From positions 25,569,977 through 25,633,976 of the forward strand of contig NC_088655.1 in assembly GCF_964019385.1 (NCBI RefSeq): 64,000 nucleotides of DNA. Reading direction: 5' to 3'. A model generated the notes under the pieces. The model was not told the DNA's origin and ran no database searches. It saw only the letters and a program-made list of their open reading frames with translations. The position numbers and the translations under genes are program-made. Positions 2,061 through 60,059 of the stretch are shown in pieces (within the stretch, counting starts at the first letter, position 1; every line of letters begins with the position of its first letter). The DNA is from Sycon ciliatum. Taxonomy: Eukaryota > Porifera > Calcarea > Leucosolenida > Sycettidae.

Positions 2061-3959
2061 ATGCATGAAGCTACAAATATGACACTAAGCAGCGGTTTGA
2101 CCAGAGTACGCCGTATCCGCATCAGCCTCTGTGGTCAGTTTGGAACCGGCAAGACGAGCCTGGCGGATTCGCTCAAGAACAAACAGTTCATGGACAAGAG
2201 GGCAAGTACACCGGCACTTGCTGTTGATCATGGCAATGTGCTCCACGGATCAGGAAACCTGACGGATTGGGAGTTCAATGCTGCATTCCTCTATACTCCG
2301 GGCATCCTTGTCCGGGCTGAAGATCTTGAGAAGAAACACCAGCAACGGGAACAAGAAGCGAAGCGAGCTGGGCCTACAGGCCTCCAGCGTACGGGAACAG
2401 CAACGCAAGAGGCAGCGTTTCCAGCTGCAAAGCAAACGTTAAAACTTGGCAAAGGTCCAGAAGCAGCACCCAGCTCAGCTGAATTGACACAGAGCCTCAT
2501 CGATGTCATCTTGGAGAACCAAGAGCTGATGCGAGACATTGGAGAAGAAGAAGTCGTGGTGTCCATTTGGGATTGCGGCGGCCAATCAATCTTCTCAAGC
2601 CTGCAGCATTTCCTAATGGGTAAAGATTACGTCATCTATATTCTCTGTTTCAACGCCTCAGAAAACTTCCAGCTCACCAAACAGCAGAACTACTGGAAGT
2701 GGTCAGGGAGTACACTGTCTGAAATGACTCTGGACGTACCGGAGGAGCTGGAGAACATCGACCACATTCGGCACTGGCTAACAGCCATCCACTTTGCCAG
2801 CAACCCAGGCAAGGCTGTGGAAAGCGAGGCGTTTGACTACCCGCCTGTGATATTGGTGGGGAACTTTGCCGACAAGCTGTCGACAGATAGGACACTTTCG
2901 GAGCACAAGGTTGATATCCTCGAGAAGCTAGGAAAGCTCTGCCGCCGGTCACCAACTTTCCAGGGTATGCTTAAGAGAAAAAACATTGATCCCGCAGGGT
3001 TGTTCCTTGTGGACAACCACGAGTCCGGAGCTTCTCAAGAAGTTCGAGGAATCCTAAAGAAGCTACAGGGTGCTGTTTCATCGGTGCTGGCAAACAAGGA
3101 GATTCCGACGGAATGGGTTCGCTTTGAGATGATAATGGAGTATCTAAAGAAACAACCCACCCACACTGGCTACACAACACGAGACTCGATGAAGACACTG
3201 GTGGAGAAGGCCTGCAAGATCCGCGATGACTTCGGCATGGACGGTGCTCCATCCGAGTTCGAGCGTCTGCTTCGGTTCTACGACGACCTACGTGTCATCA
3301 TCTATCGGCCGGCAGACAAGAACTCGCCGCAGCCTGATGACATCATCTTCCACAACACACAGTGGCTCATCAGGCAGATCAACGTCCTCGTCTTTGGCCA
3401 TATGTACCCGGTCGAACCGGGCGGAGGTGATGGCTGGACGGCAAAGGAAGCAGGGACAGCAGAAACGGATTGGCGCAACTATCTGTGGTCAAAGGGTATA
3501 GCACGCTGGCAACTAATGAAGTGTGCCTGGGAAGCAGTCAAAATAGAAGTTCGAAACAAGATGCTGGATGTGATGGTCGACTGGGATTTGCTGTACAAAT
3601 TCGGAGACGCCTCGGATGCAAAGTACTTCATCCCATCAGCTCTTCAACGTCGCCCGCCGAAGAAAATCGAGGAGGCCCTGCGCAGCTTCCAGCAGGACAA
3701 TGAGCCGAACGACGTCTGCTTCTCCACAGCTGACACACCGTTGCTGATCATGGTTCAGCCACCAGGCAAGCATGAGGAAGACCACCTGGACTACAATGAT
3801 CCCGGCGCGGACACACCGATGCCACACAGCTCCTACTTCAAGCTACTCGTACGGCTCATGAGAAAGTGGAACATCACAAATACCGACCGGAGTCGCTGTG
3901 AGTTCACCTACAACACAGCCAGGTTTCGGCTGTGGTTGCCGGAGCAGTTCCCAGGCAAG
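2061..3959 (+). CDS. ROCO-family protein, exon with Roc GTPase and COR domain
   Basis: The exon encodes 633 residues. A Ras-of-complex (Roc) GTPase starts at about residue 16: the P-loop is GQFGTGKT at 25-32, the switch II motif is DCGGQ at 171-175, and a G4-like VGNFADKL is at 266-273. A charged, low-complexity insert (about 85-140) separates P-loop and switch II. A COR domain follows (about 350-633) with typical patches such as HNTQWLIRQINVLV and YFIPSAL. In ROCO proteins the Roc-COR pair is a GTP-regulated dimerising module in cytosolic signalling. No kinase domain or leucine-rich repeats are seen here. The exon ends at a phase-0 donor (CAAG|GTCAGT) at 3959/3960. The frame runs past the donor only into a G-rich repeat. 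The start is uncertain: ATG at 2061 is first, another is at 2079, and the frame is open back to 2022 beside a weak acceptor at 2028, so upstream exons are possible. Confidence 0.88.
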
Positions 3960-5198
3960 GTCAGTGGCGGATCCAGGGGGGGGGGGGGGGTTCCGGGGGT
4001 TCCATGGAACCCCCTAAATTTTGCAAAGTGTGCGGCTGAGAAATATCGAAAAATATCATGTGTGCACGAAAGGACGTCCGTCCGATCACAGTCAGTGCAC
4101 TGCTGAGTGCAGTCACTGAGTCAAGGAGCACAGACTGTCAGTCAGCAGGTCAGTGCACTGCATGCGCGTGCGGTAGATCGATACTGTACGGATAGTAGTC
4201 TGTACTGGTGTTCACGTCCGTGATTTACAAACGGACACTGTACTGTACTGTCTGTAGACAACATTGGGTGGTTGTTTCCTTTTTGATCTTTCGAAACGAT
4301 CCAAACTTACCTCCATTGGCGCTGTCATTCACTGCTGCTCAGGATCGGTGTGGTGTGGTCAGTATTCCTTGGACAAGTTTTTTGCAGAAGAGAAAGGATG
4401 TTCCGAGTACTGACACTCTTCAACGAACTTCGAACCGTACACGTAGAGTTGAAGCTCCTCAGAATAATTATAATAATCTTTATTTCAGGATTACCCAAAG
4501 GCTGACGCCTATCAAGATGAGGGCTCCGACATCCAAGCAAAGTCAGTAATCTCTACCTGCTGCAGCATGCAGTAGTGACTAGTTGTTCCTCCGCAGGAAC
4601 GGAGTGCTGCGCCAGATGTGTTTCAGATGACATTGGAAGGATTGTACAATTGTCGACACTGTTCCGCTATTGTTGTTTCTGTCACTGAAGTGAAGACGAT
4701 GCTCTTGTCCTGTGACTATAGAGCATTTCGCATCGTAAAAATGCCAAAAATTTCCGAAAGCACAAATGGACAGGGAAAGTAACTTAGTTGTCATTTCGGC
4801 ACTCCTGGCTCTCAACGTACCCATGCCCATGGCTTGCATATTCGATCTTTACAAGAAGTTGAAAGGGTCTTCCGTACTAAATAATATACAATGTAGGGTA
4901 CGCAGCAGCATTTGGCCCTGTACAGGTTTTCCATCGTCCACCACACCACAACTGAGCTCCGACTCAGTCTCCAGCGATGGTGCAGTGGTGGTGTGCTGTG
5001 GCAACGTGTCGAGGCCGGCTGGAGAGCGCAGTTGTGGTGTGGTCGATGATGGAAAAATATAATAATTATTATGTTCGTAGTGTGTTTTAAAAGCATGCGA
5101 TTCCAACTAACACAATCGGATTGTCGTTATTACAAGTGTCAACCGCACATCTGATTCCATGATATTTTGCCTGTTCAATTTTGGTTCAACCCCTGAAG
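3960..5198 (+). other. ROCO intron 1
   Basis: Phase-0 intron from the GTCAGT donor to the CTGAAG acceptor at 5198. It opens with CAGTGGCGGATCCAGG followed by a G run (3977-3990), a sequence commonly seen at the ends of hAT-type MITEs. An inverted repeat (arms near 4926-4950 and 5030-5055, CCACCACACCACAACTG and its complement) sits in the middle. No further exon seen. Confidence 0.6.
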
Positions 5199-5603
5199 GT
5201 GGATATCTTCTTGGCTCACTACGACTCGTCAGGTGCAATGCTGGTCAGCGTCAACTTCCGGTGCTCGCCTGACTGTGCTGCTAGCGACTCTAACTGGCTG
5301 CGTCCGATCTCATCGATATGCCAGTATATCCGCAAGGTTATCATGGAGGAGTTGGGTAAGCTGGAGAACCCGAAACTGGACAAGCCAGTCATGTTCAGCT
5401 TACCACTACCGCCAGTGTGCAAATGCAAAGCACAGGAGTGGAAGGACTACAGCAGCGAAAGCCGGGACCTCGGATATGCACCGTGGCGTGTACGCTACAG
5501 CGAATCCGGTGCTCTTCACGATTCGTTCTGCAACGTGTGCAAGTTGACCTACAGCATGCCCAACAACTCAAACTGCTGGTTCAAAGCTAGTAGTAGCTTT
5601 CAG
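5199..5603 (+). CDS. ROCO-family protein, exon 2: end of COR and cysteine-rich segment
   Basis: The exon has 135 codons, phase 0 at both ends, between an acceptor after CCCCTGAAG and a CAG|GTAAGA donor. The frame joins exactly to the phase-0 end of the COR exon. The peptide begins VDIFLAHYDSSGAML, which reads as the last beta-rich part of the COR domain. It then has two cysteine pairs, CKC and FCNVC about 46 residues apart, that could bind a metal (inference from spacing only). The final residues are SSSFQ. No catalytic motif seen. Confidence is good that this is an exon of the same gene, lower for the domain edges. Confidence 0.75.
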
Positions 5604-59474: not shown

Positions 59475-59625
59475 AGAACTGGGGGTGGAGGGGGGTCAGC
59501 CTCCTAGCCTAGACTGTTCGTATTTTACATGTATTACAGTGTATGCACAGTTGAGTCACCGTGTATACATTGGTATGCTGTGCTTGGTGAAATTCTAGCC
59601 TGGTCGTTCTTCACTTCACGCTCCG
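59475..59625. repeat. Fragment matching the tail of the tandem units
   Basis: GGGGGTCAGCCTCCTAGCCT, then TTGAGTCACCGTGTATACAT and GCCTGGTCGTTCTTC, match 14305-14425 in U1. In the units this segment follows E6, so CARD-like exon 2 may stand where the ancestral unit continued. Confidence 0.8.
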
Positions 59626-59744
59626 TTCTTTGGCGTCCAACAGAACTGTGGTGTTGGATTTCTTTTCACACCACTGTTGAGTTATCACAGTGCTGTGTGC
59701 TTCAAGCTTCTTTTTATGTGCTTTGCGTTTGCTTGCATTGCCAG

Positions 59745-60059
59745 CTGGTAACCCGTTCGACTCGGAAACGTTCATCTTCGAAATTCAGCCATGGCTGAAT
59801 AAAGTGCCTGCGGAGAGACTGCGCAATGCGGCCATAGAGGCTCTTCTCATCACGGATCGCATTACGATTGCCACACTGAAACGGACTCAGGCCAACAGTG
59901 GTAGTGCGGATCACAACGGAGTCCTTGTCGAATCAATCGTCGCTGGAGGCCGGGATGCTTACCAGAAGCTGTGTAATGTCGTCAAGACGCTGGGCTATGA
60001 TGGCAGGCATGAGCAAATGGTTCAACTTCTTCGGCGGCCGGGTCCTCAGCTGGATGCAG
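59745..60059 (+). CDS. CARD-like domain exon 2
   Basis: The acceptor TTGCTTGCATTGCCAG ends at 59744 and the donor GATGCAG|GTAAGG is at 60059/60060. The exon is phase 1 at both ends, so it can be inserted or skipped without breaking the frame. About 104 residues: the NPFD start, then a helical domain with ALLITDRITIATLKR, SIVAGGRDAYQKLCNVVKTLG and MVQLLRR. The layout is that of a CARD. It is a paralogue of the exon at 31778 (shared PFD start, G-x2-A-x2-LC helix and phase) but has no stop. It is an interaction module; partner unknown. Membership in the ROCO gene is plausible but unproven. Confidence 0.65.

Follow-up and report, generated by a model that had tools for sequence, protein, structure and literature searches.

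ROCO proteins are known chiefly through LRRK2 and DAPK1, the latter with the domain order kinase-ankyrin-ROC-COR-Death. Switching of the ROC-COR module depends on GTP and on dimer state. CARDs form filaments, which bring in caspases or adaptors that have a CARD. In Trichoplax adhaerens at least 17 ROCO genes are described, with CARD, Death, TPR, LRR and AAA domains around ROC-COR (PMC4104024, in the part available). In Aplysia, ROCO domains occur within TLR-like and MyD88-like proteins (PMC9334734, also available in part). Here we describe a window of 64,000 nucleotides of the Sycon ciliatum genome (538 Mb, 313 contigs), comprising positions 25569977-25633976 of NC_088655.1, below called contig C14. 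It contains the exons of a ROCO gene, ROCO-A, followed by two CARD-like exons, C1 and C2. We think it probable that more than one gene of a ROCO/CARD cluster is partly contained in the window: ROCO-A would end in its third exon, C2 would belong to the next gene and C1 to a duplicated unit. This reading is based on the reading frame, the stop codon after exon 3, the lack of a convincing linker and the position of C1 in an array of copies. The features concerned are as follows.

2061..3959, forward strand: ROCO-A exon 1, Roc GTPase domain and most of COR, ATG at 2061, Pfam Roc 40 bits
5199..5603, forward strand: ROCO-A exon 2, end of COR, phase 0-0
8744..9018, forward strand: ROCO-A exon 3, phase 0 in and phase 2 out, TGA at 9020-9022 overlapping GTGAGT
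31778..32061, forward strand: CARD exon C1, phase-1 acceptor, stop codon TAA at 32059-32061
59745..60059, forward strand: CARD-like exon C2, phase 1-1, its frame matching that of the next gene, which lies downstream of the window

This arrangement was given in a preliminary description of the window and is confirmed: the three Roc-COR exons, which have GT/AG borders, and the two CARD-like exons lie on the same strand, C1 and C2 both open in phase 1, C1 has its own stop and C2 is phase 1-1. The joins between ROCO-A exons 1 and 2 and exons 2 and 3 are both in phase 0. The Roc GTPase domain matches PF08477 at 40 bits, above the Pfam cut-off of 27, and ROCO-A contains the P-loop GQFGTGKTS and the motif DCGGQ. 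COR is matched by COR-A (PF16095) at 17.6 bits, under the cut-off of 35.3; relatives of a second type, ROCO-B, score 25.7 and 27.1. Exon 3 matches no Pfam family at E<=10 and has no relevant PDB match. It was considered as half of a Death domain from an impression of its pattern, which neither Pfam nor PDB supported.

At least 105 Roc matches are present in the genome (the best 150 of 441 candidates were scored). Exon 1 has 14 close relatives at 81-91% identity, clustered on contig C11 (3.37-3.84 Mb), and five at about 50% on contigs C7, C5 and C189. The window holds the sole contig C14 copy in this list of relatives, which covers the best candidates scored. Exon 3 has 10 relatives, every one on contig C11. 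ROCO-A exons 1-3 thus belong to a family with 14 close members clustered elsewhere and this single copy found on contig C14. Five of the exon 3 copies are on the minus strand of contig C11 (3348131, 3419110, 3492236, 3540514 and 3608181), opposite to most of the ROCO-A cluster, and have no same-strand ROC-COR exon nearby among the listed exon 1 relatives.

C1 encodes a CARD according to its structure model, which shows the six-helix death fold in its CARD form. C2 most likely encodes a CARD also, judged by its sequence. The two exons are each other's best non-self match in a six-frame translation of the window. With codon usage trained on the ROCO exons only, C1 scores 17.7 bits and C2 21.8 bits as coding, both in the correct frame; one reverse frame of C2 scores 15.3. 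The CARD assignment in the preliminary description thus holds for the modelled fold of C1 and, most likely, for C2; against the curated Pfam CARD cut-off of 23.9 bits both exons fall short, C1 having no match and C2 scoring 14.1. Pfam CARD is found at E<=1 in three of 14 aligned relatives, one of which, at the contig C11 locus L063, is above the cut-off with 31.9 bits. A profile of the 14 sequences has as its top PDB match a protein designed on the APAF-1 CARD (E 0.005), followed by APAF-1 and CARD8 at about 0.05. APAF-1 itself is an NB-ARC ATPase and not a ROCO GTPase. PDB sequence searches with C1 or C2 singly gave no match, a profile of the two gave unconvincing matches only, and a search of NCBIfam gave nothing useful. 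Both exons are members of large families. C1 has at least 150 matches in the genome, 109 of them listed at E<=0.001, and C2 at least 150, all listed at E<=5.1e-8.

Exon 3 ends on two codon bases with GTGAGT next, and reading through therefore gives the TGA at 9020-9022, where the ROCO-A protein would most likely end. The phase-2 GTGAGT and the TGA are also present in both contig C11 paralogs that were read, L064 and L065. An ATTAAA at +701 is the sole AATAAA or ATTAAA within 3 kb past the window TGA, such hexamers being frequent by chance. Both CARD exons need a phase-1 donor, and frame rules out a direct splice that would join either of them to exon 2 or exon 3: all four joins meet stops 2-18 codons past the junction.

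The preliminary description had proposed C1 and C2 as alternative 3' ends of the window ROCO gene. This proposal is not supported by the four joins, which all meet stops within 18 codons and are bridged by no convincing linker, and we now regard it as very improbable. The two exons do both open in phase 1 and are alike in sequence, and at L063 a single ROC-COR exon has two CARD exons behind it, which shows that possible ends can be neighbours. However, neither C1 nor C2 is in frame with exon 2 or exon 3. C2 closes in phase 1 without a stop codon, and its relatives at 82-89% identity are on contigs C12 and C4, away from the ROCO-A cluster of contig C11. The second CARD exon at L063 is itself out of frame and has many stops.

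Beyond the window, a chain of exons downstream points to a place for C2. L060 is a CARD-like exon of phase 1-1, L061 is a second ROC-COR exon of the ROCO-B type (Roc 36 bits) with phase 1 at its start and phase 0 at its end, and L062 is a copy of C1, here called C1', 99% identical to the window C1. Joined in the order C2, L060 CARD, L061 ROC-COR, a 52-nt linker and C1', these are open for 1022 codons with GT/AG borders. C2 would be an N-terminal CARD exon of this next gene, predicted to encode CARD(C2)-CARD-ROC-COR-linker-CARD(C1'). Similar chains are found at other loci. At L063 a 49-nt exon stands between a ROC-COR exon and, downstream, a CARD exon with a stop, and the three are open for 866 codons; at L067, on contig C7, the end of ROC-COR, the linker and the CARD are open to the stop. 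The linker has both splice sites at all four loci read, with 49 nt at L063, L066 (contig C9) and L067, and 52 nt at L061. Among the best candidates scored, and with split matches merged, another 45 ROCO-B loci are found at 41-75% identity. ROCO-CARD genes, as predicted from frame and exon order, are a real class in this genome. The earlier proposal of a ROCO GTPase with a CARD tail stands for this class, through the contig C14 and L063 chains, and is doubtful for the window gene with C1 or C2.

The position of CARD exons was compared with 102 ROCO loci (20 of type A, 46 of type B and 36 more distant), with split matches merged. The CARDs were 161 distinct C1- or C2-type loci on contigs C1-C5, C7, C9, C11 and C14, among the matches listed; CARD matches on contigs without a ROCO match were dropped, and C3-type (that is, L063-type) CARDs and Pfam Roc matches were left out. 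On the same strand and within 15 kb, a CARD is found downstream of 21 loci and upstream of four, and at none is there one on the opposite strand; within 30 kb the numbers are 25, five and zero, the loci not being independent because many are recent duplicates. For type A one of the 20 loci has a CARD downstream and one upstream within 15 kb.

The downstream excess is among the points in favour of a tentative alternative, which we consider possible and would not call probable. C1 could be the true C-terminal CARD of ROCO-A, reached through a missed exon (3n+2 from exon 3, or 3n+1 from exon 2), with C2 in the next gene. ROCO-B genes have by frame just such an ending, a linker of 49-52 nt and a CARD tail. 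Searches for the missed exon speak against it in the window. No bridging exon from exon 3 to C1 (2 to 1) is over the coding threshold. With loose thresholds there are 30 such candidates, and the 15 shown sit in or between the repeats at 9.1-27 kb, with none at 30640-31777. A strict scan for 0-to-1 linkers found only pieces of the open reading frame (ORF) of a long interspersed nuclear element (LINE) after exon 3, and none in intron 2 or at L065. Two candidates common to the window and L065 were rejected: 9113-9204 lies within a repeated element that L064 is without, and the block 31180-31384, part of which is also in L064, has no acceptor that could be seen and was treated as a repeat remnant. 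The TGA past exon 3 in both paralogs read also argues against a C1 tail, as does L064, where the 8 kb from its exon 3 to an opposite-strand exon 3 copy contain nothing that matches C1, C2 or C3.

Several observations weigh against ending ROCO-A at exon 3 and placing C1 and C2 elsewhere. L065 has a CARD exon 4.6 kb past exon 3, behind intron pieces which are common to the window near C1. C3-type CARD exons lie 5.6, 8.4 and 11.5 kb downstream of three of the 14 contig C11 copies of ROCO-A. Judged by sequence, these two observations favour a CARD tail on ROCO-A, and it is because of L065, the best counter-evidence, that we give C1 as the tail the weight that we do. A scan of aligned intron 2 sequences found six weak 0-to-1 candidates which would bring exon 2 into frame with C1. 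Those at 6156-6240, 6204-6240 and 7517-7691 are also present in one or both paralogs, a recurrence which says little because the intron, where present, is 93-99% identical between copies. The linker scans gave weak candidates and nothing convincing, and a missed exon is therefore possible. For the next gene, the open chains are suggestive and not proof, because a phase match is expected by chance at about one in three junctions and the CARD exons examined open in phase 1. C2 would also be atypical as an N-terminal exon, because most ROCO-B loci are without an upstream C1- or C2-type match (one is present within 15 kb at three of 46).

ROCO-A, as a gene ending in exon 3, may instead bear a CARD at its N-terminus. 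An acceptor-like CAG (2026-2028), opening in phase 1, precedes the ATG of exon 1, and both are kept across 14 aligned copies, the window being one of them. Upstream of the window by 5.8 kb, the C1-type exon L059 closes in phase 1, and joined to ROCO-A exons 1-3 through the acceptor at 2028 it is open for 971 codons to the TGA. This phase 1-1 exon could be spliced in frame into exon 1. Against this, the donor after L059 is weak (GTACGC), and the stretch between the acceptor and the ATG may be 5' untranslated region because one exon 1 paralog, L010, has a 1-bp deletion there.

The array position of C1 suggests where it came from. Among the listed matches there are nine C1 copies at 65-100% identity, the window copy included, all on contig C14 between 24.47 and 25.90 Mb, whereas only two ROCO loci are found on contig C14 among the best candidates scored in two ROCO searches. 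The surroundings of C1 are 99.4% identical across 3.3 kb to the downstream unit that contains C1'. C1 would thus be a recent duplicate of the terminal CARD unit of the next gene and not the end of ROCO-A. Other C1-type copies (L041, L045 and L046) read beyond ...NLL to ...RV and a donor-like GT, where the window (32059-32082) has TAA; the C1-type exon at L045 is phase 1-1.

Such duplicates might also have no role in any protein. That C1 and the other recent contig C14 copies are simply decaying is unlikely in our view. The window copy ends six codons short of the ...PPELRV terminus of other copies, and nonsynonymous differences prevail in some recent pairs of copies (15 to 1, 31 to 3 and 29 to 3), the last two pairs counting in favour of decay. 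Yet none of the nine copies has a stop within the 276-279 nt match, and the ratio of nonsynonymous to synonymous rates (dN/dS) between the window C1 and the distant L048 is 0.30. In other pairs with the window C1 the nonsynonymous excess is smaller, dN/dS being 0.91 with L042, 0.72 with L044, 1.9 with L045 and 1.16 with L046; rough one-sided tests on four C1 pairs gave p values of 0.035, 0.050, 0.096 and 0.29. Exon 3 of ROCO-A has 13 nonsynonymous differences to 1 synonymous, 12 to 0 and 10 to 1, and dN/dS in exons 1-2 is 0.41-0.61 (exon 3 against exons 1-2 in three overlapping comparisons, rough one-sided p 0.05, 0.01 and 0.07). The nonsynonymous excess in exon 3 and in some C1 pairs fits either diversifying selection or loss of constraint.

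A protein with ROC-COR and CARD is predicted most simply to act in cell death or innate immunity as a scaffold under GTP control. By analogy, the nucleotide state of the ROC-COR GTPase would control this scaffold, which would expose or cluster its CARDs, and for innate-immune or cell-death signalling these would draw in caspases or adaptors that have a CARD. We infer the splicing of the predicted genes, and the membership of C2 in the next gene, from the sequence. L063 (4150-4675) and L065 (4916-5440) share a terminal CARD exon with its 3' flank at 96% identity, and the ROC-COR exons of these two ROCO subfamilies are only about 20% identical, which points to a recent transfer of the tail exon. 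More speculatively, and with considerable doubt, the loci may form a large repertoire of ROCO-CARD receptors with interchangeable phase-1 CARD exons on either side of the ROC-COR exons, tails exchanged through recent duplication among distant ROCO subfamilies, alternative ends and diversification by selection, in which ROCOs may take the role that NLRs have in other organisms.

Two further features of the window lie between the exons.

3960..5198, forward strand: intron 1 of ROCO-A, without counterpart in 14 of 14 contig C11 paralogs, flanked by duplicated AAGGT (AG|GT)
9097..29512, forward strand: LINE-bearing repeat array, occupying the greater part of the stretch from exon 3 to C1

Intron 1 is likely a recent intron gain by a mobile element: AAGGT stands on both sides of the inserted 1.2 kb, so the duplicated target would itself provide the AG|GT of both splice sites. 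The repeat array consists of two long copies that are 98.6% identical (9097-14460 and 15537-20912) and several fragments, and its LINE-bearing repeats also precede C1 copies outside the window. A second reverse-transcriptase element is found at 41684-43188, with its frame divided over two overlapping ORFs. Large tandem repeats are present at 35085-38190, 48470-52557, 56075-57789 and 60285-61238, with units of 40, 24, 6 and 26-28 bp, and several of them yield long spurious open frames. Duplicated segments flank the C2 region (52795-54588 and 61889-63665, 97% identity), and a second pair, at 96% identity, comprises 383-1077 near the window start and 61271-61951.

With at least 105 matches to Roc, at least 150 relatives of a single CARD exon and the same ROC-COR/CARD order at many loci, the genome would suit tests of ROCO GTPases as immune scaffolds which trigger CARD assembly, and the study of death-fold exon shuffling between receptor families. 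A literature search with partial coverage found no title on CARD-ROC-COR-CARD, and we make no claim that this order is unpublished; nothing on it was found in the available part of PMC8195603, and PMC6321704 is without the words ROC, COR domain, CARD domain and GTPase.

The ROCO-CARD architecture is of an already known kind. DAPK1, a cell-death protein, is alike in having ROC-COR near a death-fold domain; unlike DAPK1, the genes described here have CARD and not Death, and no kinase or ankyrin match was found among the exons scanned with Pfam. The Aplysia ROCO proteins are alike in that ROC-COR is joined to immune adaptor domains in an invertebrate, and differ in that the partners reported in the available part of the paper are TIR and Death-like and not CARD (PMC9334734). 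The ROCO proteins of Trichoplax share the combination of a ROC-COR GTPase with CARD in predicted proteins, and the presence of many ROCO genes in one animal genome, as far as the available part of that paper goes (PMC4104024). Unlike Trichoplax, the sponge has a higher copy number, and its CARDs are encoded by phase-1 exons of their own, together with a short linker exon, and stand both before and after ROC-COR in the predicted contig C14 gene.

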